Origin: Akkermansiaceae bacterium
GTDB lineage: Bacteria > Verrucomicrobiota > Verrucomicrobiia > Verrucomicrobiales > Akkermansiaceae
Length of the DNA: 35,698 bases
Direction of reading: 5' to 3'
Assembly (NCBI GenBank): GCA_903875675.1
Contig: CAIQXC010000333.1
Location: 1-35,698 of the forward strand
The notes below the pieces were generated by a model. The model was given only the letters and a program-made list of their open reading frames with translations. It searched no databases and was not told the DNA's origin. Below, one piece after another: positions 3 through 24,683 of this stretch. Positions within the stretch are counted from its first letter, which is position 1. Each line of letters opens with the position of its first letter. The position numbers and the translations under genes are program-made.

Positions 3-143
3 ACCTTCACGAACGCGACGGCGGCGGATCTGTTCCACGGCGCGAACACGAAGGCGGCCCGAGTGATCGACAAGGCGCTCTGGCCGATCGTCCGGCGGAA
101 GCTTGACATGGTCAACGCGGCGGCAGCGGTGCCGGAGCAATGA
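3..143 (+). CDS. C-terminal fragment of a protein truncated by the window start; possibly amidohydrolase/TIM-barrel hydrolase
   Basis: Open frame from the window edge: TFTNATAADLFHGANTKAARVIDKALWPIVRRKLDMVNAAAAVPEQ, stop TGA 141-143. 'NATAADLF' weakly resembles amidohydrolase/TatD C-termini. Confidence 0.35.
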   Translation, partial: TFTNATAADLFHGANTKAARVIDKALWPIVRRKLDMVNAAAAVPEQ

Positions 144-2895
144 ACTTGATAGGCTCCTGGTTGGTCGGTTCTGGAATGGCTTCCGGATCACCACAGCGGT
201 TGGCATATTTCGCGAGCATGTCGATGCGCCGTTGCATCACCGGCCGGGCACCATTGACGTGCTCGGTCCAGGTGCCGTGGTCGGGCACGTTGAGGTCGAT
301 CCAAGTGATGAGGCGATCCCAAGCCTCGGCGTCGAGCTTCACGTTGTAGTGGCCGCGTTTGAGCATCTGCATCAGTTCGCTGGTATCGACGTGATACTCC
401 AGGGGTTTTTGCAGATGATAGTCGCTTTCCGGACCCGGGCGGCGCACAAACGGATGCAACGCAATGTAAGATTTGGTGAAGTTACGCTCGCCATTGTCTT
501 TCTTGGCGGTGAAGTCTGCCACCGCCTGGCCGTTGACTGGCTGAGCACCTTCCTTGTGGCAACCCACACAGTATTTGTCTAATACCGGTTGCACCTCACG
601 TTTGAAATCGAAGCCGCGAGCCGGGCCATACCACGGAGTGATGGCTGAGGCCGGCCGCTGGCTGGCAATGGTGGGCTTGCTCGGAGGAATCGCGTTCTGG
701 GTGTCGTGGCAACCAATGCATGAGAAACTCTCACCAGGCATCGCCGTGTACCAACTGCGCATCAACTGGATCGCCTTGCCTTCCGCATCTAACGGTTGAA
801 CCGCAATCGGCGTGTTGGCAGGTACCTTGAAGCTGGCTGAGCCGTCGGCCTCCACCGGCACGGTGCCAAGGATCCGATGGACGTCCCACGGGCCGTCGAT
901 GCCTACATTGATATGGCCGCCCATCCCCTGATAGGCAAAGTGCGGTTCATAAAGGCGCATCTTCTTGACGGTGCCGCGCGGCACGTCCTTGAGCCCCGGT
1001 CCCTGATAGATGTCTGCCAGATAGACGGTGGCATCGGTTTTGGTCAGATCGACGCGGTCGGGAATGACCGGAGGGCGGGTGGACTTGCGCAGTGGGATGG
1101 GTTCAAACATAACAAAGCCGTCCTGTTCCTTGATGAGGGTCATGTTGTCGAACACATCCACCAGATAGACACCCCATTTGGCACCTTGAGTGAGTTGGCT
1201 GGAGACCAGGAAGTACTTATCGCTGAGCGGATAGGGATGCAGGAACTTTGGCCATGAGCCATCGCAGAGACCGTCAGCAACGATGGGTTTGACTTCCTGG
1301 CCCGCACCGGGAATGCGTTGCACCACACCATCGGCCTCAAAGCGGCCCTTGGCGGGGTCGAACAAAATCAGTTCGCCCATGCGAGGCACGCCGTGGTGGC
1401 CGGAGATGACTGAGATGAGTTTGGTTGGATGGTTAGGGACGGGTTTGGCATAGAAAAACGAGTTAGGCCAATAGGAATTACTACCGTAGTAGGACATCTG
1501 ACCGGAGCCATCCGGGTTCATGCGGAAGAGGATGCGGGTGAAGTAATGCGGGGTGTCGGAGTATTCCCAGCGGGTGTAGAGGACGGTGCCATCGTTGAGC
1601 ACGGTCGGGCACCAATCTTGGTCCTGATCGAAGCACAACTGGCGGATGCCGGAGCCATCGGCATTCATTTTGCAGATATTGGCGACCGCGTCGCCGCCGC
1701 CGACACAAGGTACGCCCTGGAAGCCGCGGGTGGAGGTGAAGAGGATTTGGCCGCTGGGCAGATAGCAAGGTTCGAAGTTGTCCACATCGGGTTCATCGCC
1801 GGGGGTCACTTGGCGCAGTCCACTGCCGTCGGCCTTAATTTCCCAGACCTGCCAGCGGTCATTTTTGCCGGGCATGGAGAACAGCAATTTGTCGCCGCCG
1901 AAATCCAGTTTCATGTCGCCCACGAAGCCATGGTTTTCTGGCTTCAGGAGGGTGGTGAGTGTGCCCTGCGGGCCGATTGGGGAGAGTACGTCGATTTCGT
2001 TATCGCACTGTTTGCCGATGGCTGCGTTGGATTGCCAGTTTTGGGGCAGTTCGAGGTTGTTAGCGCTGCGTTTGACCAGCAGCATTTTGTCGAAATCGAT
2101 CACGGGGTTGGCGAGCAAGGCATCGCGCTGGAAGGTGGCAAACGTGTTAGCCAGTTCCTGGATGCGTTGTTTGGCCCCCTGATCACCGGCAGCCAAGGCG
2201 GTTTCCGCGTCCTTGATGGATTTTTCCAACTCGGCGAGGCGGGCTAGCAACTCCCTGCCCTTGGGGAATTTGGCACCGTTGGTGGCGACCATATCTTCGA
2301 GCGCGTCGCGGGTGGTTGGCACGCCGCGCAGCACCGGAAACTCCTTGGCGCTGGCAGGCGCAAGGCGGGTCTGGCTAGCCCCAAGCGCAAAGTAGAACCC
2401 ATGACTTCCGCTTTGATTGTGGATTTTGAGCAGCAACTTGTTTTCGCCGGCTTGGAGGTCGAGGATCACGATGGCGCTATCCGGTGAGACGCCGCGAGCG
2501 ACGTCTTGCGAGAGGAGTTTCTTGGCGTTGAGCCAGACTTCCAGTCCATCATCGCTGCCGAGACTCACTGACGCTTGGGCCGGTTTCTCAACCGTGAGCG
2601 TCCGGAACAGATAGGTCGAGACCCGCCCGTCGGCGGGCAATTCCTGGGCCTTGCCGTCGCTCCATTCAGGATGTGCCGTCCACAGGGCCTTGCCGTCCGC
2701 AGCTTTGGCCGCCAGATCAATCCCCTTTTCCGGGAAGAACCCATCAGCAAATGCCTGCGCCTTCAAGGGGCCGCTCGTGTGCCACGGACCGAGCTTCACC
2801 TGTGACGTTGCCGCCAACAAGTTGCTGCTGGCAGTCGCAGTTCCTATCAAAGCCAGCACAGCGGCTTTGCCAATCATTGACTTCAGATTTTTCAT
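112..2895 (-). CDS. Secreted c-type cytochrome/beta-propeller protein (hydrazine synthase alpha-subunit-like/TolB-like) with two CxxCH haem motifs
   Basis: 927 aa; N-terminal signal peptide (MKNLKSMIGKAAVLALIGTATASSNLLAA), TolB-like repeats (ADGSGLRQVTPG, NADGSGIRQL), haem motifs SCIGCHDTQ and YCVGCHKEG. Confidence 0.8.
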   Translation of the reverse strand: MKNLKSMIGKAAVLALIGTATASSNLLAATSQVKLGPWHTSGPLKAQAFADGFFPEKGIDLAAKAADGKALWTAHPEWSDGKAQELPADGRVSTYLFRTLTVEKPAQASVSLGSDDGLEVWLNAKKLLSQDVARGVSPDSAIVILDLQAGENKLLLKIHNQSGSHGFYFALGASQTRLAPASAKEFPVLRGVPTTRDALEDMVATNGAKFPKGRELLARLAELEKSIKDAETALAAGDQGAKQRIQELANTFATFQRDALLANPVIDFDKMLLVKRSANNLELPQNWQSNAAIGKQCDNEIDVLSPIGPQGTLTTLLKPENHGFVGDMKLDFGGDKLLFSMPGKNDRWQVWEIKADGSGLRQVTPGDEPDVDNFEPCYLPSGQILFTSTRGFQGVPCVGGGDAVANICKMNADGSGIRQLCFDQDQDWCPTVLNDGTVLYTRWEYSDTPHYFTRILFRMNPDGSGQMSYYGSNSYWPNSFFYAKPVPNHPTKLISVISGHHGVPRMGELILFDPAKGRFEADGVVQRIPGAGQEVKPIVADGLCDGSWPKFLHPYPLSDKYFLVSSQLTQGAKWGVYLVDVFDNMTLIKEQDGFVMFEPIPLRKSTRPPVIPDRVDLTKTDATVYLADIYQGPGLKDVPRGTVKKMRLYEPHFAYQGMGGHINVGIDGPWDVHRILGTVPVEADGSASFKVPANTPIAVQPLDAEGKAIQLMRSWYTAMPGESFSCIGCHDTQNAIPPSKPTIASQRPASAITPWYGPARGFDFKREVQPVLDKYCVGCHKEGAQPVNGQAVADFTAKKDNGERNFTKSYIALHPFVRRPGPESDYHLQKPLEYHVDTSELMQMLKRGHYNVKLDAEAWDRLITWIDLNVPDHGTWTEHVNGARPVMQRRIDMLAKYANRCGDPEAIPEPTNQEPIKFIAPAPLPPR

Positions 2896-3101: not shown

Positions 3102-4103
3102 TTACCTAACCGTCAGAGCCGGTGTCTGGCAAGGAGCGTTGTAGTATTCCAGCAACTCGTCGTCCATTTTGGCGGCGAACATCTGGAACCCGGCCATTTC
3201 CTGCACCGTGAGCCATTCGCCGCAATGAGATGCGGCGATGCTGATGCCCTGGGTGTCGAGGTACTTTTTACAGCCACGCAACACGATATACATCTCCATG
3301 AGCGTGGTGGCACCAGCACCGTTGATGACCAAAAGAAGGCGGTCGCCTGCTTTGGCTTTAACAGCGGCAACCAGCCGCGAACACATCAACTCGGCAGTCT
3401 GGTCGGCACTGAGGATTTTGCTAGGACCGGTGCCGGCCTCGCCGTGCTGGCCCATGCCGACTTCCATTTCATCCTCGGCACGTTCGAAGATGGTCTGGCC
3501 GCTGGCTGGATGGGTGGCGGTGCGCATGGCCACTGCCAGAGTGGCCATGTTATCATTGAAGCGGCTGGCGATGGCATACACCTCGTCGAGGCTTTTGCCG
3601 GCTTCCGCCGCTGCTCCAGCAACCTTGTATAACGGGCAACAGCCGACCAAGCCACGCTTGTCTTCGGCCGGAGCGTCGGCACCCGGCGCAATGTCCTCGT
3701 GGGTCACAATTTTCCGATAGAGGATCCCTTCCTGGTCAGCCATCTCGGCGGCCATGTCGGCGCTCATGACGTCGCCGGCGTGATTGAGCACGACGAAGAG
3801 GATGCCAGCATCGCGCTTGGCGAGGCGCAGCGCTTCCAACACCTTGGGCGGTCCCGGCGCGGCGAAAATGTCACCGACGACGCTGAAATCCAGCGCTCCT
3901 TCGCCGACAAAGCCGCTAAGTGCGGGCTCATGGCCTGCGCCACCGAGGGTAACGATGGCGACCTTGCTGGCCGGCTTGGGCTTGGCGCGACAGACGATTT
4001 TGTCGGACTTGACGGTGACGATATCGCCGTGAGCGATGGCGAACCCCTCAAGCAGCTCTTTGGTGAGGTCTTTGGGGTCATTGATAAATTTCTTCATAGC
4101 CAT
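3102..4103 (-). CDS. dhaK: Dihydroxyacetone kinase subunit DhaK-like
   Basis: 333 aa; MKKFINDPKDLTKELLEGFAIAHGDIV, GGAGHEPALSGFVGEGALDFSVVGDIFAAPGP, and substrate-His motif GQHGEAG. Confidence 0.9.
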   Translation of the reverse strand: MAMKKFINDPKDLTKELLEGFAIAHGDIVTVKSDKIVCRAKPKPASKVAIVTLGGAGHEPALSGFVGEGALDFSVVGDIFAAPGPPKVLEALRLAKRDAGILFVVLNHAGDVMSADMAAEMADQEGILYRKIVTHEDIAPGADAPAEDKRGLVGCCPLYKVAGAAAEAGKSLDEVYAIASRFNDNMATLAVAMRTATHPASGQTIFERAEDEMEVGMGQHGEAGTGPSKILSADQTAELMCSRLVAAVKAKAGDRLLLVINGAGATTLMEMYIVLRGCKKYLDTQGISIAASHCGEWLTVQEMAGFQMFAAKMDDELLEYYNAPCQTPALTVR

Positions 4104-4127
4104 AATGGTAAATGCATTGGGGGTTGC

Positions 4128-4448
4128 TTACTTGGCAAACTCAAGGAATTCAACCGGCGCGCCGTCATCAAGGATGAAGGCGCAGCGGATGCCGGGCAGG
4201 GGCTCGAAGGGTGCCCAGATGACCTCGTGACCTGCGATGGCTTCTTCCAGATTGTCCACGCTGTAGGCCACGTGAGCGGTGGTCTTGAGCACCTCGGGGA
4301 ACGGGCAATCGGGCTCGGCGCGCGTCCACTCGATGCGATGCGGGCTTTGGGTCGCATCGGTGATGTAGAGTTGGATGCTTTCCAGATAGATCTCGTTAGG
4401 CCGGGGCTCGGACGTGGGAATACCGATGTGGTGAAATTCCTTTTTCAT
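4128..4448 (-). CDS. VOC/glyoxalase-like family protein
   Basis: Start placed at ATG 4448 (MKKEFHHIGIPTSEP...) rather than the longer track ORF. HHIGIP, HVAYSVDNLEEAI and VEFLEF match VOC fold metal-ligand positions. Confidence 0.7.
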   Translation of the reverse strand: MKKEFHHIGIPTSEPRPNEIYLESIQLYITDATQSPHRIEWTRAEPDCPFPEVLKTTAHVAYSVDNLEEAIAGHEVIWAPFEPLPGIRCAFILDDGAPVEFLEFAK

Positions 4449-4472
4449 GCGGGGTCGCTGTGGGTGGATCAA

Positions 4473-5195
4473 TTACAGCTTCACATCGGGATTGGTGAAG
4501 ACCAGGCCGGCACCGTCATGGAAGCTGGCGTATTCGGCGACGATGGCACCGGATGGGCCACCCATCATGAAGTGTTTGGCGGTGAGGCGGTTGAGCGCGA
4601 GGATGTCGCCGGCCTTCACTTCGGTGCATTTCTTCACTGTGATAAACTTCTCCTGGCTCTTGGGCAGGACCACGCCAGCCGGGATATCACCGCCGGTCTC
4701 GCCGAAGCAATAAATGCTGCCGTTGCGCGGATGCCAGCTTTCCATTTTGGCTTTGCCCTTGTCCGTCTCGGTGTGGCCGTGCTCGACGATCATCTGGCCC
4801 GGCAGGAGGAATATCTCATGGGCAAAGTAATTGGCTTCTTGGGAATTGACCCAGAACACGCCGCCCATGCCGACATTGACAAAATCGCCGAGACCGAAAT
4901 CGGTGTACCAAAATGGGGAAGCCCATTTTTTCTCGTTTTCGAGATGGATGTCGTAGCCGTGGGCTGCCATCATATCGAGGTAGGCCTTTTTGGCGACTTC
5001 CGGTTGGAACTTGCCGTCCACATAAAAGTCGGCGTTCTTATACTTCGGCAGGGTGATTTTCTTGGGGTTCATGGGGGTGGTTTCCTTGGCCAGGCTGAGG
5101 ACGCTGCTAAGTGCGGCGGTGCCTGCGGCTGCGGCCAACAGTTGCAGGTGGTTGCGACGGGTCATATTCATGTTGATTTGTTGGTTTGTGGTCAT
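4473..5195 (-). CDS. D-lyxose isomerase-like cupin sugar isomerase with predicted twin-arginine signal
   Basis: FAHEIFLLPGQMIVEHGHTETDKGKAKMESWHPRNGSIYCFGETGG and GDILALNRLTAKHFMMGGPSGAIVAEYASFHDGAGLVFTNPDV match the D-lyxose ketol-isomerase family. N-terminus MTRRNHLQLLAAAAGTAALSSVLS is Tat-like. Confidence 0.8.
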   Translation of the reverse strand: MTTNQQINMNMTRRNHLQLLAAAAGTAALSSVLSLAKETTPMNPKKITLPKYKNADFYVDGKFQPEVAKKAYLDMMAAHGYDIHLENEKKWASPFWYTDFGLGDFVNVGMGGVFWVNSQEANYFAHEIFLLPGQMIVEHGHTETDKGKAKMESWHPRNGSIYCFGETGGDIPAGVVLPKSQEKFITVKKCTEVKAGDILALNRLTAKHFMMGGPSGAIVAEYASFHDGAGLVFTNPDVKL

Positions 5196-5282
5196 GTGTG
5201 ACGGGGCCGACGCTCACACCCAGCCCCTCAGATAGCCCAACCACACGGCCACCTTTCGGCAGCAGATTAGTCAGACAGCAGC

Positions 5283-5300
5283 CCAACGCAATAGAAAAAA
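5283..5300 (-). promoter_or_regulatory. Shared 18-bp upstream motif, copy 1
   Basis: ccaacgcaatagaaaaaa on + strand; 17/18 identical to 6953-6970; about 88 nt upstream of the isomerase start. Confidence 0.5.
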
Positions 5301-5334
5301 ATTTGCATTTTGGCCGATGCGTGCCGGGCTCGGG

Positions 5335-6213
5335 CTAATGCTGGTGTTTGAGCGTGTTGTAGAGGTCGAAGGCGTCCTTAGGGGTGAGTTTGTCGTGGAC
5401 GACGGCACGCACGGCTTGGATCATGGCGATCGGGTGATCGGACTGGAACACGTTGCGGCCCATATCGACCCCGGCAGCCCCCTGTTGGATTGCCTGGTAG
5501 GCGAACTCGAGGGCTTCGTCCTCGGGAAGTTTTTTTCCGCCGGCGATGACGATGGGTACCGGGCAGGCGGCCACCACTTGCTCGAAGCCAGTCTCGCAAT
5601 AGTAGGTTTTGACGAAGGTAGCACCGTTTTCCGCACAGATGCGGCTGGCCAGCCCGAGGTAGCGGGAATCGCGGACGAGTTCCTTGCCAACAGCGGTTAC
5701 GCCGAGAGTGGGGATGCTGTATTTTGCGCCCATATCAGCGGTGCGGATCAAGTTCTTGATAGTGACGGCCTCGTATTTGCTGCCGATGGCAACCATGATG
5801 GCCAGCGCCGAAGCATTAACGCGGATGGCGTCCTCAATATCGAGGAGGCACTCGTCGTTAAGATCGGTGAGCACGGTGGTGCCGGCAGAATATCGGAGCG
5901 AAACCGGCTTATTAGATGTGGGCGGCACGATCGAGCGCAATGCGCCGCGAGTGCACATGATGCAATCGGCGTATTCGATGAGCGGGGTGATTGTCAGATC
6001 CATGCGTTCCAGTCCGGACGTGGGGCCCATGATATAGCCGTGGTCGAAGGCGAGCATCACGGTGTTGCCGGACGTCGGGTTGAAGATGCGGCTCAAACGA
6101 TCCTTGATGCCCCAGTCGGCATGCTCCAGGCCCTTGAGGAAAAACGGATGTTGTTTGACGGGGATGCCGATGCCATAATCGTTGGCATCCTTGGTGTTGT
6201 CTAGTTCAGCCAT
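5335..6213 (-). CDS. LsrF-like class I aldolase/thiolase (3-hydroxy-5-phosphonooxypentane-2,4-dione thiolase family)
   Basis: 292 aa; DYGIGIPVKQHPFFLKGLEHADWGIKDRLSRIFNPTSGNTVMLAFDHGYIMGPTSGLERMD...CTRGALRSIVPP is strongly LsrF-like. Candidate Schiff-base Lys in TFVKTYYCETGFEQ. Confidence 0.85.
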   Translation of the reverse strand: MAELDNTKDANDYGIGIPVKQHPFFLKGLEHADWGIKDRLSRIFNPTSGNTVMLAFDHGYIMGPTSGLERMDLTITPLIEYADCIMCTRGALRSIVPPTSNKPVSLRYSAGTTVLTDLNDECLLDIEDAIRVNASALAIMVAIGSKYEAVTIKNLIRTADMGAKYSIPTLGVTAVGKELVRDSRYLGLASRICAENGATFVKTYYCETGFEQVVAACPVPIVIAGGKKLPEDEALEFAYQAIQQGAAGVDMGRNVFQSDHPIAMIQAVRAVVHDKLTPKDAFDLYNTLKHQH

Positions 6214-6243
6214 GGTGTTGGTGTGTTAGTTTAGGTGAGTGGT

Positions 6244-6873
6244 TCAAAGCGCCTCGCTAAAGCCCTTGAATATAAGGGAAACGGACACAGCGCCGGGATC
6301 GACGTGGCCGATGACCCGTTCGCCGAGGTTGCGGGCACGGCCGAATTTGGCGCGAAATTGCTTGGTGGCCTCGGCCCCTTCGGCGGCGGCGGCGGCGGCT
6401 TGCCGGAGAGCCAGGCGGATGTCGCCCGAAGGAGCGGCGGCTAACAGCGCATCAAGCGCAGGCAGGAACGCGTCCATCATGGTTTTGTCACCGACGACCG
6501 CGCGGCTCTGCTTGGCGAGTTTGAGAATACCGCCGTTCATCATCGCCACCAGCGCTGTGCAGTCGAGCTCGGCGGCTTCTCCGGCGGCGGCGCTCATGCC
6601 CATGAACCACGAGCCAAGCAGGGGACCGGTCGATCCTCCATCGCAGTCCATCACATCCCAGGAGATTTTGGCGAGTAGCGGTTTGAGCTCGTTACCGGGA
6701 GCATCGGCTATGGCCTTTGAGACAGCTTCCATGCAGCGCAGGATGGTACTGCCGTGGTCGCCATCGCCCACGGCGGCGTCGAGGCGGGAGAGTTGTTCGT
6801 GGTTGGCGCGGATTTGTTCGACGGCGGCCAATAGCATCTGGCAGACTTGGGGATAGGAGATGGTTTCAGACAT
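6244..6873 (-). CDS. dhaL: Dihydroxyacetone kinase subunit DhaL-like
   Basis: MSETISYPQVCQMLLAAVEQIRANHEQLSRLDAAVGDGDHGSTILRCMEAV; DGDHG nucleotide/Mg motif; GSTGPLLGSWFMGM. Start placed at ATG 6873. Confidence 0.88.
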   Translation of the reverse strand: MSETISYPQVCQMLLAAVEQIRANHEQLSRLDAAVGDGDHGSTILRCMEAVSKAIADAPGNELKPLLAKISWDVMDCDGGSTGPLLGSWFMGMSAAAGEAAELDCTALVAMMNGGILKLAKQSRAVVGDKTMMDAFLPALDALLAAAPSGDIRLALRQAAAAAAEGAEATKQFRAKFGRARNLGERVIGHVDPGAVSVSLIFKGFSEAL

Positions 6874-6952
6874 GGCGGGATCAATCAACTCGGTTAACAA
6901 CGCAAATGACCCTATAGGGTGGGCCGCGCTTGACCTAGAATATCTTCCCCAA

Positions 6953-7177: not shown

Positions 7178-7885
7178 TTAGAGCTTACCGATGGTCAGCT
7201 TCAACTTGGTGAGTTGCTTCTCCAACTTGGTAACCTGATTGCCGATGGCGATAGCCACCTTGGCGCTCAGGCCGCCAGTGGCAGGAGCCTTCACCTTCGC
7301 CACCTTCACAGGCGCTGCGGCTTTAACGGCTTTAGGAGCCTTCGGAGCTTTGGGAGCTTTCGGAGCTTTGGGAGCTTTCGGAGCCTTGGGTGCTTTAGCG
7401 GCTTTAGGAGCCTTGGTTGCCACGCCAGCTTTTTTGACCCAGCCACTGATGGTCAGCGGAGAAACGTTGTACTTGGCGACGGCGGCACTCAAGCCACCAC
7501 GGCCCTTGGCAGTGTTAACTTCCAGCACATAAGCAACGACTTCCTGCTTCTGCGCATCTGTATAGCGCTTGCCTTGAGGGGCGTCTTGCTTGACCGCAGG
7601 TGTGGCGGCTGCTTTGGCAACCTTGGCAACCTTCACGACCTTCACGATCTTCACAATCTTGGGTGCCTTGGCAGGAGCGGCGGCCTTGGCAGCCTTGGGT
7701 TCTGCACCGGCCTTGAGCCAACCGGCGACCGTAAGCACCGAGGTGCCAAATTTTCTCGCGGCTTCGGCTTGTCCGCCCCGGCCTTTGTCAGCATTCCACT
7801 TGTTAGCGAAATTGATGACTTCTTGTTTCTGGGCGTCAGTATATCGGATGCCCTTGGTAGTAGTTTTCTTTGGAATTGCACTCAT
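7178..7885 (-). CDS. Tandem helix-turn-helix protein with Lys/Ala/Pro-rich (KAP)n histone H1-like linkers and C-terminal coiled-coil-like segment
   Basis: Two copies of a transposase-type HTH (RYTDAQKQEVINFANKWNADKGRGGQAEAARKFGTSVLTVAGWLK / RYTDAQKQEVVAYVLEVNTAKGRGGLSAAVAKYNVSPLTISGWVKK), (KAP)n tract, NQVTKLEKQLTKLKLTIGKL tail. Confidence 0.75.
   Translation of the reverse strand: MSAIPKKTTTKGIRYTDAQKQEVINFANKWNADKGRGGQAEAARKFGTSVLTVAGWLKAGAEPKAAKAAAPAKAPKIVKIVKVVKVAKVAKAAATPAVKQDAPQGKRYTDAQKQEVVAYVLEVNTAKGRGGLSAAVAKYNVSPLTISGWVKKAGVATKAPKAAKAPKAPKAPKAPKAPKAPKAPKAVKAAAPVKVAKVKAPATGGLSAKVAIAIGNQVTKLEKQLTKLKLTIGKL
7334..7411. repeat. In-frame minisatellite encoding (KAP)n
   Basis: Tandem 9/18-bp units ggagctttcggagctttg within the HTH gene. 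Confidence 0.75.
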
Positions 7886-7981: not shown

Positions 7982-9106
7982 CTAATAGCCATCGAGCATA
8001 GCAAGCAGAGTCTGTGAATCAGTCATGTTATCGATCCAATGTTGAGCCCCCTGTTTGACGCGGGGACGAGCGATGACACCGCCGAAGCCGATGAACACAT
8101 CGACGTCTGGCAGGGTTTCCAAATCGGACATGCCATCACCCATCATGGCCACGCGCTGGGGCAAGATGGCTTGCCGCCACTCGCGGATGATCTGGTTTTT
8201 GCCGCCATTGCGGGTGGTAGGATAGCTCTTACCATAGCCGGCATAGTTGCCAGACGCATCCAATTCGAGTGGCACAGCTTCCAGATGATCGATGCCAAGG
8301 TGCCGGGCCAAGGGAGCGATGAGAGGAGCGAAGCCACCGGAGAGAATCACTGGCAGCCAGTCATGTGTCTTGAGTTGTTGGATCAACTCGGGAGCGCCTG
8401 GCGTGAGTGCGGCCACATAGAGCGCAGCGACCTGTTCGCACGCCGCCCGGTCTGGACGGATGATATTCATGCGGCGGGCAAACACCTCATCAAGGGGCAC
8501 TTCGCCATTCATAGCGGCATGCGTGAGGGCCACAACTTCGGCATAGACCTCGGGACCGCGCACTCGTGCCAACTCATCAATCCCCTCAATTTTGGAGAGG
8601 GTTGAATCGCAATCCAGGAAGATGAGTTTGCCCCGGCACTGGTGGGGCGGATGAATAAAAACCTCGGCACCTGGAGACACCAACTCAAATAACTCAAGCA
8701 TATCCTTATTGAGCAATCGGATGCAACCATGGCTTGCCGGACGCCCGATGAGATCCTCGCGATTGGTGCCATGGATATAGATGCAGCGCTCGAGAGTATT
8801 GGCATTCTCGGGGTCCATGCCATCCAAGCGAAGGATGCGGGTGAGCACCAAATCATCAGTCACCACATCGCCCGGCTGCCAGATGCCGCAAGCCACTCTT
8901 GAGCGAAAGACCGTGCCCGGTTCGGCACCCGCGCCGAGCTTCTCCAGCACCCGAAATCGCCCCAGTGGCGTGCGAAAAGAGCCCACAGCAAAGCCCACGC
9001 CTTTGGTGCCGGTGGAAACCGGATAGCTGCGCAAGCGACGCTTCGCCTCGAACACATCCAGGCGTTGATCATCGACGGAGACTTCTAATGAGATTGAAGG
9101 ATTCAT
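7982..9106 (-). CDS. Fusion: N-terminal L,D-transpeptidase (YkuD) domain + C-terminal HAD-IB (SerB-like) phosphatase
   Basis: 374 aa; YkuD motif IHGTNREDLIGRPASHGCIRLL, then HAD motifs LIFLDCDSTLSKIEGIDELA, VILSGGF and MMGDGMSDLE in the same frame. No obvious signal peptide. Confidence 0.88.
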   Translation of the reverse strand: MNPSISLEVSVDDQRLDVFEAKRRLRSYPVSTGTKGVGFAVGSFRTPLGRFRVLEKLGAGAEPGTVFRSRVACGIWQPGDVVTDDLVLTRILRLDGMDPENANTLERCIYIHGTNREDLIGRPASHGCIRLLNKDMLELFELVSPGAEVFIHPPHQCRGKLIFLDCDSTLSKIEGIDELARVRGPEVYAEVVALTHAAMNGEVPLDEVFARRMNIIRPDRAACEQVAALYVAALTPGAPELIQQLKTHDWLPVILSGGFAPLIAPLARHLGIDHLEAVPLELDASGNYAGYGKSYPTTRNGGKNQIIREWRQAILPQRVAMMGDGMSDLETLPDVDVFIGFGGVIARPRVKQGAQHWIDNMTDSQTLLAMLDGY

Positions 9107-10263
9107 GAGGGTTGGATTGCGATTAAGGAGTTGTGGCCGCCCATGCCGTGAGCGAGTTTATATACGGGTCCGGTGGCTTCAAGGATTGTCTCGGGCAACA
9201 CATAGCCGTGTGGCGCGTGCAACCCGGAGCGGTTGCATGGCAATTTGCCGTCACGCAGGAAACATGCCAGAATCACACTTTCTAACAAACCGCTGGCTCC
9301 AATGGTGTGGCCAACGAATGGCTTGAGCAAATGCAACGTCGGACGCATGTCGGGGAACGCCCGGTCAAACGCCGCTGGATCGGCGGTGGCTTGGACCGCT
9401 GTGCCCGTAGCATGCGGGCACAGAGCGACGGGCGGATGGGTCAGGAGCCGTGCCTGATGCAACAACTCCGGAGTGCGCCCGCCATCGGCGGGAATGCCCA
9501 CCGGGTCACAAGCGTCAGCATTGCAGGCATAATGCAATAATTGCGGGCAAGTTCCTGCATTCGAGGGCTCCAGCGTCATCGCTGCGGCACCTTCACCGGG
9601 CACGAAACCAGCGCTCAAGGGATGATATGGATTGCAATCCATGCTGGCGGCTAGCAACCCGGACATGGCATAGTTGTCCAACAGCAAAGGAACCAGCGGC
9701 AAGTCCACCGCCACCGCCAGCGCCCGAGGAGCCATGCCGCCACGCACCATCAGCAGCGCTATACCTAACGCGTCCAAGCCGGCTGAACAACCACTGGCAA
9801 GCACTTGGTTGGGCCCGCACATGCCAAACTCAATACTGATGGCAGCGGCAGGTTCGCTATGAATGGTATTGCTCGCCGCCATCAGCCGGAACGGCCGTCG
9901 TCCGGGCCACGGGCCTAACCAACCGGCTGCATTGCCGCGGCTTGTGCCTACGACCAGCGCGGCATCCTTTAACTCCGCCGGGCCCCAACCGGCATCACTG
10001 ATGGCCTGCCTGGCCACATGCAAGGCCGCCATCGTCACCGGACTCCATTTGCGATGGTTCAGCAAGCCTCGTGCGGCAATCCATGCTGCAGGCCGAGCCG
10101 CATGCGGGCTATCAGGTCCGAGCAATTTGCCCAGCGGCTGAAATGGCACATATTGGTCGGCGACGGCGCGATGGTGTTGCGCCACGGATTCGCCGAGGGC
10201 GGAGAGAGCGCCGAGACCGGTGATGAAAAGTGCTGGGTCGATGCGCACGAAGTAGCAAGCCAC
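9103..10263 (-). CDS. Beta-ketoacyl synthase (3-oxoacyl-ACP synthase-like)
   Basis: Active-site region ASGCSAGLDALGIA, HATGTAVQATADPAAFDRAF, LKPFVGHTIGASGLLESV; start codon uncertain. Confidence 0.82.
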   Translation of the reverse strand: MACYFVRIDPALFITGLGALSALGESVAQHHRAVADQYVPFQPLGKLLGPDSPHAARPAAWIAARGLLNHRKWSPVTMAALHVARQAISDAGWGPAELKDAALVVGTSRGNAAGWLGPWPGRRPFRLMAASNTIHSEPAAAISIEFGMCGPNQVLASGCSAGLDALGIALLMVRGGMAPRALAVAVDLPLVPLLLDNYAMSGLLAASMDCNPYHPLSAGFVPGEGAAAMTLEPSNAGTCPQLLHYACNADACDPVGIPADGGRTPELLHQARLLTHPPVALCPHATGTAVQATADPAAFDRAFPDMRPTLHLLKPFVGHTIGASGLLESVILACFLRDGKLPCNRSGLHAPHGYVLPETILEATGPVYKLAHGMGGHNSLIAIQPS

Positions 10264-14822: not shown

Positions 14823-17156
14823 ATGGAAGAGCGCTACGAAATCCGGGAAAAGATCGGTCAGGGAGGGATGGGATCGGTCTATCGGGCCTATGACACGCGG
14901 ATGAACCGCGAAGTGGCGATTAAGCGCATCCAGCAAGAAGGCGAGGACGCGCAGCAGCAAGCCACTTCGCAACAGATCATCAGGGAAGCCGGAGCCCTCG
15001 CCCAGCTGCAACACCCGCATATCGTCACCGTCTATGACGTCGGCACCGATGAACAAGGGCCTTATGTGGTGATGGAATTGATCAGCGGCAAGACCCTCGA
15101 CGAACTCATTGAGCGGGCTCCGCTAACGTGGGCGGACTTTCATGAGCTCGCCTTGCAAACCCAGGAAGCCCTCATCGCCGCCCAAGAACTCAACCTGGTC
15201 CACCGAGACCTCAAACCCGGCAACCTCATGCTCACTTGGCTGCCCTCCGGTAGATTCCAAGTGAAAATCGTCGATTTCGGCCTAGCCAACCTTGCCGAAG
15301 CCTCCCAGCTGGACCAACTCGAAAATACCGAAGCCGTCTATGGCTCGATTTTTTTCATGTGCCCTGAGCATTTCGAACGTGTCAAATTGGACATGCGATC
15401 GGACATGTACTCGCTGGGTTGCGTTTACTACAACGCTTTGACGGGGAATTACCCATTCACCGGGGAGACCGGGCTGCAAGTGATGACCGCCCACCTCCAC
15501 CATCAGGTCATTCCCCTGCAAGAAGTCCGCCCGGATATCCCACTCTGGGCCTGCGATTGGGTCATGTGGCACCTCAACCGTCTCAGCGCCGATCGCCCGC
15601 AAAATGCCCGCGAATCCCTGAAAATTTTCCTCCAAAACTCCAAAGTCAGATCCTCAACCATGCAGACCAAGCCCACCCCTCCGACAACCGGACAAATCCA
15701 GCCCCCGCGCTCGATCGGCCTGAGCGCCTCTGCGCAGGGACCCGCTGCCGCTATCATTGTTCCAGAGCCTCCGCGCACCCAAACGGCACCGCAAGCTCTG
15801 CTGCCACCGGAAGGCTCAAAGCCAAGCGTTCATGCATCCCCGCCACCCCCGCCGCCGCCGATGCCCCCACCGCCGCCACCGCCGGCCGTGGTGCTGCCAG
15901 CCGCGACGATCCTTCCAGCGCAGCCGGTATTGCCCGCCCTGCCCGCACCCCGCTTGGCAACCTCCGCCAAGCCCGCCGCTTCCCTCGCCCCCAAGTCCAC
16001 TCATATCCCAAAAGCCGCGATCGGCCCGAAAGTGGCCAAATCTGTCGGCGTAGGCCACGCCCCGGCACCCGTTGCCGTCGTGCGTCAAGGTGAAGCCGTG
16101 CAGCCTGATCTCGAATCGGCTCCGGTGGGCAAGCGCCGCCCGCTGGGTAAGGAGGCCAAGACTGCGATCAAGACGGTGGTGGCGATCGTGGTGGTGCTGG
16201 TGATCTTGATCATCTATAGCAAAATGCCTAGCCCGCAAATGGCGACCCTCACCGATATGATGCAAATCGCAGCCGTGCAGGACACCCGCAAGGTTGCAGA
16301 TGAAGAGAAAGAAGTCACCGTCACCAAAGACTCGTTGGACGTCCTGCTCAAGGCCACTCTGACCCCGAGCATGACCAAAACCCCAGCCCTCGTCTATTTG
16401 GCCCTCTGTTATGCCAAACCCGCCCCCGAAATCGATCTCGAGGTGGACGCCACCATCGTCGCTTTCGTCCTCCAACAATTTACCAACGACATTTGCGATC
16501 CGCAACTCCTTGATGTGTTGCGCAAACGCAAGAGCCCGACCGTCGCCCCCCCCCTCCTTGAATTCTGCCGCACCACCGGCAATGCCAAGGCCGCCATCGC
16601 CGCCATCCAGGCGTGCCGCACCATCACCACCGAAAAGGACTTTCCCAAATTCATCGATATCGTCGATTTCACAGGCAACCCCGACATCAGACAAGCCGCC
16701 GAGGAAAGCGCCGCCGATATGCTCAAAAAATCCATCAACCGCCAGTCGCTGGGCAGCAAGGTGAGCGCATCACTTACCACCGCCTCCAATAGCGACGTCA
16801 AGTATGCTCTCATCCGTTTGCTCGGATGCGTCGGCGGAGTTAAAGCCGCAGATACCATCACAACCGCGCTCGCCTCCACCGACAAAAATGAGCAACTCGC
16901 CGCTGCCATGGGCCTCGCCTCATGGCCTGACGATGCCAAGTTCGAATCCCTGATCGCCTATCTCAACACGCTCACCGACGCCCAAACCCGCAAACTCGTG
17001 TTTGATGCCTGCGTCGGTTTCGTCGCCAACCCGGATCGCACTCGCCCCCCCGAAATCAGCGTCAAATTCTGGAACCTCCTCAAAACCAGCTCCAAGTCCC
17101 CCGTCGAACAGGCACAGGTCGACCGCGCCCGTGCCGGTAATAAATCCAAGAAATAA
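14823..17156 (+). CDS. Eukaryotic-like Ser/Thr protein kinase with Pro-rich linker, one TM helix and HEAT-like C-terminal region
   Basis: GQGGMGSVYRAYDTRMNREVAIKRI, HRDLKPGNLML, VDFGLANL; poly-Pro linker; TM TVVAIVVVLVILIIY; C-terminal alpha-helical repeats. Confidence 0.9.
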   Translation: MEERYEIREKIGQGGMGSVYRAYDTRMNREVAIKRIQQEGEDAQQQATSQQIIREAGALAQLQHPHIVTVYDVGTDEQGPYVVMELISGKTLDELIERAPLTWADFHELALQTQEALIAAQELNLVHRDLKPGNLMLTWLPSGRFQVKIVDFGLANLAEASQLDQLENTEAVYGSIFFMCPEHFERVKLDMRSDMYSLGCVYYNALTGNYPFTGETGLQVMTAHLHHQVIPLQEVRPDIPLWACDWVMWHLNRLSADRPQNARESLKIFLQNSKVRSSTMQTKPTPPTTGQIQPPRSIGLSASAQGPAAAIIVPEPPRTQTAPQALLPPEGSKPSVHASPPPPPPPMPPPPPPPAVVLPAATILPAQPVLPALPAPRLATSAKPAASLAPKSTHIPKAAIGPKVAKSVGVGHAPAPVAVVRQGEAVQPDLESAPVGKRRPLGKEAKTAIKTVVAIVVVLVILIIYSKMPSPQMATLTDMMQIAAVQDTRKVADEEKEVTVTKDSLDVLLKATLTPSMTKTPALVYLALCYAKPAPEIDLEVDATIVAFVLQQFTNDICDPQLLDVLRKRKSPTVAPPLLEFCRTTGNAKAAIAAIQACRTITTEKDFPKFIDIVDFTGNPDIRQAAEESAADMLKKSINRQSLGSKVSASLTTASNSDVKYALIRLLGCVGGVKAADTITTALASTDKNEQLAAAMGLASWPDDAKFESLIAYLNTLTDAQTRKLVFDACVGFVANPDRTRPPEISVKFWNLLKTSSKSPVEQAQVDRARAGNKSKK

Positions 17157-22804: not shown

Positions 22805-23305
22805 TTAGCGAAGCGAGACGACCACGGCTGCCATCGCCACTAAAGTCCTTGAACCCAGAGTCCTTGTGAAGGAGTCAAGCTTTCCAGAACCTTTCCATTT
22901 GGGTGTTCCGACCATGCGGAGCAACGCAAGAGCGGTGGGTTCGATCTGATAGGCGGTCTTGCCGCTGTTGGTCGGGCGCTTGGGGTCGTCGGGATTGCGG
23001 ATCAGCAAGCCTTCCTCCACGAAGAATTTCACCGCGTCGTCGCGAATGGTTTCGCGGGTGTTCGGTGCATAGCGGACGTTGTAGGTGATGGCGATGAAAT
23101 CAATGATGGGTGTGATCCCACGCAGGGGGGCTTGCGCGTCTGCCCATGAAACATCGGGCTGAAGATCGAGCAAAGCGAGCAGAGTGTAGGCGGCGATCTC
23201 GTTGCGCTGTTTCAGGCCAAACTCCAATGCGGTGAGAGCTGCGATGGCTTCCGCGAGCCGTTGTTTCCTCGCGGCTGCTTTTCTGCTAGGTTTAGCTGAT
23301 GACAT
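22805..23305 (-). pseudogene. BsuBI/PstI-type restriction endonuclease, N-terminal domain only (truncated)
   Basis: RNEIAAYTLLALLDLQPDVSWADAQAPLRGITPIIDFIAITYNVRYAPNTRETIRDDAVKFFVEEGLLIRNPDDPKRPTNSGKTAYQIEPTALALLRMVGTPKW resembles the BsuBI/PstI N-terminal domain. ORF ends before any catalytic domain. Confidence 0.65.
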
Positions 23306-24683
23306 GAAGGTGTTTGGTGACGAGGAGGTCGATTTGTTCTTGTGAGTGGTCTAGGACATTGATCTCGCGGCCCATGGCTTGGAGGGTTTTTCGATCTGGG
23401 TAGGCCAAGGTCCGAAGATCGGTAGCGTTCACCTGAGTGTGACCGCTGAAGCGCCGGAAATACTGGTCAACCATGGTGGAATTCAAGAAAGCATAAAGTC
23501 CGATCGCCAGATCGCGGTCCAAGCCGTGCCCGGCCGTGTGGAAGTAATTCAGGTGATTTTCAAAACCGACCCACTCTGTTAGAATCTGATCTGGATCAAA
23601 CAAGCAGGCTACGAGGCGGCGTTTTTCCTCCTTAGACGTGAAGCGTTTGGTAAGAAGATAGACCCCGGATGGAACGAGCCACTGGCGGGTTTCGTGAGTG
23701 TCGAGAATGGCGTTGGGTTTGCGGGCTTGCGGCTTCGGCCAATGAATGGTGCCGCCATTGAAATGGCATGGATAGATCAAGGGCACGGTTCCAGGTTCCG
23801 ACTCCTTGCGCAGCGCATCCTTCAACCGAAAATCCACCACACGACCGGTCGAAACGGTGACACCTAACGAGGCGAGGTTAGAGCTGAGACTGCCCATGGC
23901 TTCTTTTGCCGCCGCATGGCTTGCCGCAGATGGGATGTGGATGAATTTCGCGGCATCGTGCGGGTGGACGATTTCCGAGAAAGGGAAAACGGTTTGGGTG
24001 ACGACATCGCGATGTTCGCCGCTACTGCTGGAGATGATTATTTCGTCCGGCTGGATTCTCCCTTTCACTGCGTGGAAGATGACATTCTCCTGCAACACGT
24101 TGTCCTTGCGGAAGGCGGCTTTTCGGGATTCGAAAACGTGGAGTCGGCGCAATTCCAGATGCTCCAGGAAGTCTTCACGAAACGGGCGGAAGTAGGGGCC
24201 ATTGCAAAAACTCCGCGGAGTGATGCCGACAAGTTGCCCGCCGGGAATCAGCAGGCGCTGAATGAGAGCGATGAAGCCGGTGCAAAGATTGCTGGTTTCC
24301 ATCCCGACGGAACGAAGGGCGTGCCTTTCGGGGGAGTCAGTGCTGATTTTTCGATAGGGTGGATTCGCGATGGCGGCATCAAACTCGGGCGGCGGTGCTC
24401 CGAATAAATCACCCCCGAGCCTGGCCGACATCTCTTCGATGAAATCGGCGGAGTGAATGGTGAACGTGAAGTGAATGAGGTGGATTGTGGAGATGACATC
24501 TATTAGACATGATTGCAAACTTGAAGCACCACCGGAATCGTGGATTTTTTTCAGGATTGGAGGATTCGCAAAGTGTGCTAGAACGGGGGCCGCACCTTGC
24601 CCGACGCCACCGACATCCATGCCTTTCTCGGCGACTGCCGCTGGAAGCAGCGCTTCGACGACGACCATCTCGCCGCCGCACAC
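23292..24683 (-). pseudogene. N6-adenine DNA methyltransferase (BsuBI/PstI/Eco57I-like), apparently missing its N-terminal SAM-binding part
   Basis: IANPPYRKIS catalytic motif and type II MTase-like C-terminus. Residues before about IHSADFIEE do not look like MTase, and no motif-I-like DPACGTG sequence is seen. True 5' end uncertain. Confidence 0.65.

Follow-up and report, generated by a model that had tools for sequence, protein, structure and literature searches.

Why should a YkuD domain, of the L,D-transpeptidase fold, and a SerB-like phosphatase of the HAD type share a single polypeptide chain in a bacterium of the Akkermansiaceae? The question is raised by a 374-residue reading frame in the window, by which we mean the whole 35,698-nucleotide stretch of DNA analysed here. 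The original prediction had proposed a cytosolic enzyme of this fold, acting on a non-murein substrate and coupled to a phosphatase. Based on sequence, structural models and genome comparisons, we consider it likely that the frame encodes one cytosolic polypeptide with two independent enzymes, which would be an ElsL-like carboxypeptidase and a phosphoserine phosphatase, derived from a collapsed gene pair. The frame and its parts are:

7982..9106, minus strand: ElsL-like YkuD + SerB-type HAD fusion protein, 374 aa (ORF, Pfam, NCBIfam, AlphaFold2 model)
8654..9088, minus strand: YkuD (putative ElsL-like L,D-carboxypeptidase) domain, residues 7-151 (Pfam, NCBIfam ElsL, invariant residues, Foldseek 1y7m)
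8723-8725, minus strand: codon of the catalytic Cys128 of the YkuD domain (HGTN = 112-115)
8630..8653, minus strand: short linker forming the fusion junction, residues 152-159 (domain limits, model strands, separate-gene comparison)
7991..8629, minus strand: SerB-type HAD (putative phosphoserine phosphatase) domain, residues 160-372 (profiles, invariant residues, Foldseek 6hyj/6q6j)
8612-8614, minus strand: codon of the nucleophile Asp165 of the HAD domain

ORF analysis revealed a single frame running from 9106 to 7982 with an ATG start and zero internal stops, in which a Pfam scan gave only YkuD (residues 7-151, E 2.7e-20, 73.9 bits) and HAD (residues 162-332, E 1.1e-12), with no peptidoglycan-binding domain. 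As had been proposed, the motifs of both families are intact within this one frame (HGTN at 112-115, SHGCIRL at 125-131, DCDST at 165-169, SGGF at 256-259 and GDGMSD at 323-328), and their catalytic residues are invariant across 38 fused homologues; the invariant positions of the YkuD half include Cys128, His112 and Gly127. Purifying selection acts on both domains (dN/dS about 0.04-0.19). In an AlphaFold2 model built from the 38 fused homologues (mean pLDDT 93.3, pTM 0.89), strands end at residues 148-152 and resume at 160-164, flanking the linker. Foldseek comparison of this model matched its N-terminal part to Bacillus subtilis YkuD (1y7m, E 6e-10) and its C-terminal part to human phosphoserine phosphatase (6hyj/6q6j, E 4e-22).

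The fusion's ATG and the TGA of the gene before it share a 4-base overlap, and upstream of this ATG the frame stays open for just 17 more codons (a 391-codon frame) with no start codon within them. Across the N-terminal 40 residues of the fused homologues, a hydrophobicity scan, used as a crude stand-in for signal-peptide prediction, found no strongly hydrophobic stretch (best 12-residue mean Kyte-Doolittle -0.20 to 1.29). Together, the start overlap, the short open extension and the non-hydrophobic N-terminus leave no room for a signal peptide, in agreement with the predicted absence of one, and the leaderless start supports the proposed cytosolic location. Unlike exported L,D-transpeptidases, the fusion protein has neither an export signal nor an anchor.

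The window's genome assembly consists of 952 contigs and the two genes are unfused in three relatives, as might be seen had an assembly or sequencing error merged them. The probability of such an error is nevertheless vanishingly small, and we regard this origin as ruled out by independent single-contig genomes (G004, G049, G342, G345 and G410) and by the isolates Luteolibacter pohnpeiensis KCTC 22041 and Haloferula luteola YC6886, all of which carry the same fusion and thereby confirm its contiguity. In total, the fusion is present in about 50 Akkermansiaceae genomes, and purifying selection on both halves likewise speaks against an artefact. Named records with the fusion belong to the Verrucomicrobiota and are mostly labelled Akkermansiaceae or Verrucomicrobiaceae; among 99 relatives, and 388 genomes across the phylum, it is confined to one family (f1) and three of its genera. 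We examined 54 fused-half entries, two of which have a dead HAD half, while a few are truncated by a premature stop or the end of a contig.

In other families, the YkuD and HAD halves are separate genes at separate places. Three genomes of family f1 (L128, L129 and L130) carry them unfused and adjacent, in the order YkuD, HAD, HTH gene, and in L129 the separate YkuD and HAD genes overlap by 4 bases (ATGA); this adjacent pair is likely the precursor state of the fusion. The fused HADs are compatible with one clade (p-AU 0.55), which fits a single fusion without proving it. In the YkuD tree, members of the genus with a YkuD half only are interspersed among fused ones, the pattern that loss of the HAD half would produce. 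The fusion probably arose once, in Akkermansiaceae, from two adjacent, closely spaced genes (elsL-like and serB-like), in which loss of the intervening stop, whether the genes overlapped or only lay near each other, would have created the single reading frame.

Two conserved neighbours accompany the fusion:

9103..10263, minus strand: ketoacyl-synthase-like gene, upstream, with the 4-base overlap
7178..7885, minus strand: gene for a two-HTH, Lys/Ala-rich protein, downstream

The ketoacyl-synthase-like protein carries Cys and His active-site motifs, and in most of the family its gene lies before the ElsL-like gene, the two sharing 4 bases; in a genome of another family (G065, L095 5459-7213), a ketoacyl-synthase-like and an ElsL-like domain occur in one 584-aa ORF. 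We know of no reason to pair a ketoacyl synthase with a murein-recycling enzyme. The Lys/Ala-rich composition of the two-HTH protein is histone-tail-like, and this protein is joined in frame behind the fusion at L092 6361-8016 and L139 5493-7049 (ORFs of 551 and 518 aa). Other genes in the window are:

112-2895, minus strand: 927-aa protein matching PF18582 (hydrazine synthase alpha middle domain, E 8e-32), although one would not expect hydrazine metabolism here
3102-6900, minus strand: side-by-side cluster of Dak1 (DhaK-like), an LsrF-like thiolase (456 bits) and DhaL
14823-17156, plus strand: Ser/Thr protein kinase with HEAT repeats
23292-24683, minus strand: Eco57I-type methylase domain

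Which reaction might a leaderless YkuD domain catalyse in the cytosol? Among YkuD models, the best NCBIfam match of the YkuD half is ElsL (NF040925, E 1.4e-24); since its 86.7 bits, like the 92-98 bits of separate relatives, fall short of the 270-bit cut-off, we refer to it as ElsL-like. In Acinetobacter baumannii, a bacterium without LdcA, ElsL is a cytosolic, leaderless YkuD L,D-carboxypeptidase that trims D-Ala off recycled tetrapeptides (PMC8649774). The YkuD half shares with ElsL the lack of a leader, the catalytic Cys, the lack of a peptidoglycan-binding domain and an occurrence in bacteria with Mpl but no LdcA; the fusion differs from ElsL in its attached phosphatase, in its 374-aa length, outside the 105-200 aa range, and in reaching just 87 of the 270 bits. 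The survey of ElsL described short orthologues in all orders of Verrucomicrobia using a 105-200 aa filter (PMC8649774), and our separate ElsL-like relatives are mostly 150-200 aa long. Because proteins longer than 200 aa were excluded, the 374-aa fusion would have been missed, which explains its absence from that survey.

The genomic context is consistent with this assignment. In the source genome, Mpl is present (433 bits), LdcA was not found by profile search, and each of the three further YkuD proteins starts with a leader resembling a signal peptide or lipobox and lacks a match to the ElsL model. Across the family, LdcA occurs in just 2 of 56 genomes with an ElsL-like protein. Gene order shows the whole fusion to be gone in G035, G050 and G038, and LdcA is present in the first two and absent in the third; LdcA is likewise found in G020 (59% complete), where the fusion gave no match. 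The YkuD half is thus most likely an ElsL-like cytosolic L,D-carboxypeptidase of murein recycling, in which Cys128 would cut recycled murein tetrapeptides by attacking their meso-DAP-D-Ala bond, freeing D-Ala, and the resulting tripeptide would be re-ligated by Mpl. A cytosolic transpeptidase, or an enzyme with a non-murein substrate as originally predicted, would agree with the unreached ElsL cut-off and with the lack of a match to the AmpG muropeptide permease model in the source genome (92% complete). We find either quite unlikely, given that L,D-carboxypeptidase activity has been proven for a leaderless YkuD protein of this profile (PMC8649774), that LdcA stands where the fusion is gone (G035 and G050) and that nearly all relatives have Mpl. 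Since cytosolic YkuD enzymes are a known kind, exemplified by ElsL, no non-murein substrate is needed.

For the HAD half, the evidence points to a plain phosphoserine phosphatase, a possibility that the original prediction left unconsidered. Both by sequence and by fold, its best solved relative is human phosphoserine phosphatase (PSPH). HAD-IB motifs I-IV and the phosphoserine-binding residues are all kept, and the positions matching human Asp20, Asp22, Glu29, Arg65, Ser109, Gly110, Lys158, Asp179, Asp183 and Arg202 are invariant in the 38 fusions; we take these sites to include the nucleophile and acid Asp, the substrate-binding Glu, Arg and Lys, and the loop Arg. The HAD half therefore has in common with SerB and human PSPH (TIGR00338; 6hyj, 1nnl) the HAD-IB fold, all four catalytic motifs, the substrate-binding Glu, Arg and Lys and the GFGG...R loop, while the fusion is set apart from them by its extra N-terminal YkuD domain and by a Leu in place of human Phe58. 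Dunaliella salina GPDH (6iuy) likewise combines a metabolic enzyme and a SerB-type HAD region in one chain, but it is eukaryotic, has another partner and places the HAD region first.

In the source genome, which carries SerA (612 bits), the HAD half is the sole strong SerB-type match (114.5 bits; the next, at 27 bits, lies inside a 916-codon frame), and neither ThrH nor DUF1015 was found by profile search. As its 113-114.5 bits remain below the 144-bit cut-off of TIGR00338, which all 99 relatives also fail to reach, we name it SerB-type. Its sequence points to the genome's phosphoserine phosphatase, the last enzyme of serine synthesis, in which Asp165 would accept the phosphate from O-phospho-L-serine before hydrolysis, yielding L-serine. 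SerB-like HADs supply the histidinol-phosphate phosphatase in several Proteobacteria (PMC5764234), the two substrates are chemically alike, and the HAD half does match the HolPaseNeis model weakly (19.9 bits). That it is a histidinol-phosphate phosphatase is very improbable, however, as it is nearest to human PSPH, as a SerA-bearing genome would be left without a recognisable phosphoserine phosphatase, and as the exclusion of ThrH and DUF1015, described below, would be unexplained.

Genomes in which the SerB-type HAD is missing provide a view of its role that does not depend on its own sequence. Among the 99 relatives, 51 are SerB+ and 46 SerB-, two genomes with a HAD cut at a contig edge being excluded. 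Neither DUF1015 nor ThrH occurs with an intact SerB-type HAD (0/51 each); SerB- genomes have DUF1015 in 41 of 46 cases, ThrH in 27 of 46 and neither in 3 of 46, two of these three being under 80% complete. G030, which lost the HAD half and has neither substitute, is an exception. In a second, prospective set of 80 further genomes, picked by HAD state alone, DUF1015 was found in 0/39 SerB+ and 23/41 SerB- genomes, so that 18/41 SerB- genomes are without it. The tree needs about six HAD changes, with just two independent pairs on well-supported branches, which makes a sign test incapable of significance, and the few independent losses mean that Fisher values for this distribution overstate the evidence.

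The weak TIGR00338 matches (~200 aa) in many HAD-less genomes proved to be ThrH, which scores 269-333 bits on its own model. ThrH (phosphoserine phosphatase/homoserine phosphotransferase, NF010109) is of the HAD-IB type like the HAD half, but belongs to a different HAD clade and, among the 99 relatives, is restricted to genomes that lack an intact SerB-type HAD; phosphoserine phosphatase activity has been reported for the Pseudomonas enzyme (PMC5764234). In the 99-relative set, ThrH is absent from 16 of the 41 DUF1015 genomes, where DUF1015 would have to do the phosphoserine step. At several loci, DUF1015 (PF06245) occupies the very place that was vacated:

L060 8080-9330, L061 6040-7356 and L067 6748-8589: DUF1015 where the lost HAD half would lie
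L112 5935-7185: DUF1015 replacing the whole fusion

The L061 copy is of a divergent subtype (20% identity to the L060 copy) and the L067 copy is similar to it; DUF1015 has thus probably entered the slot on two or more occasions. In G035, DUF1015 stands alone between the ketoacyl-synthase-like and HTH genes. At L116, L117 and L124, a potassium transporter gene lies between DUF1015 and the ketoacyl-synthase-like gene, as identified by a K_trans scan in L116 and judged by equal gene size in L117 and L124.

A sequence search of DUF1015 against PDB chains gave nothing credible, and only fold comparison succeeded: with a model of pLDDT 91.5, all nine PDB fold matches at E<=0.001 were SerK, its Pyrococcus homologue or SbnI. 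Pyrophosphate-dependent serine kinases exist in Thermotoga. Both free serine and phosphoserine serve as substrates of SerK (PMC5120207). The free serine kinases SerK and SbnI (5x0e, 6nr6) are unrelated to the fusion itself and share their fold with DUF1015, the stand-in for its HAD half; DUF1015 is longer (about 415 aa) and would need to run the reaction from phosphoserine to serine. DUF1015 was not found beside serA or serC among ten neighbours scanned, and our literature search found no report of it as a serine enzyme. Judging by its modelled fold and its distribution, DUF1015 is probably an enzyme converting phosphoserine to serine in genomes that lack SerB. Replacement by a SerK-like protein would, in turn, tie the HAD half to phosphoserine independently of its own sequence.

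The same losses bear on whether the two halves are coupled. Eleven genomes of the genus retain a YkuD half whose HAD partner has disappeared or is dead. At L070 and L071 (G016 and G023), the HAD is still fused but dead, its DxD, SGG and GDGxxD motifs being lost, and the dN/dS of this pair of dead HAD halves is 0.40, compared with 0.11 for the YkuD halves of these two proteins and 0.04-0.19 for the HAD halves of intact fusions; at L066 (G051), the fused HAD is reduced to a stump. Dead HADs and the stump are found solely in genomes with both DUF1015 and ThrH (G016, G023 and G051). Such repeated loss or decay next to a retained YkuD half argues against obligate coupling, and we rejected the fusion as an obligate functional unit. 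The predicted coupling to a phosphatase holds in the physical sense and is hypothetical in the functional one, and the most likely reading is that of two enzymes merely sharing one chain.

Both halves could instead serve one pathway, with the HAD dephosphorylating a murein-recycling product such as muramic-acid phosphate, like Pseudomonas MupP. The fusion and its precursor gene pair do bring the halves together, and SerB-like HADs may have other substrates (histidinol phosphate, PMC5764234); still, this is decidedly improbable, because the substitutes for the lost HAD are serine/phosphoserine proteins (ThrH and the SerK-fold DUF1015), the phosphoserine-site residues are invariant, no second SerB candidate exists in the genome and the HAD half is repeatedly lost from beside a retained YkuD half. 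A regulatory function of the fusion, in which one half would sense phosphoserine/serine or muropeptide/D-Ala and set the activity of the other, is also unlikely. The pTM of 0.89 and the short linker would make a fixed interface between the halves possible in the model, and a regulatory role, if true, would tie wall recycling to serine supply in Akkermansiaceae.

Taking the halves as two enzymes on one chain, both inferred activities are of already known kinds, and our search of open-access papers found no description of YkuD, phosphoserine phosphatase and their fusion together. In many genomes, the phosphoserine phosphatase is missing, a gap that has been pointed out before (PMC7311316, PMC9026213). 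The present analysis assigns likely functions to both halves of an architecture found widely within one bacterial family. Its most useful by-product concerns DUF1015: the natural losses of the HAD half single out this widespread family of uncharacterised role as a probable SerB substitute.
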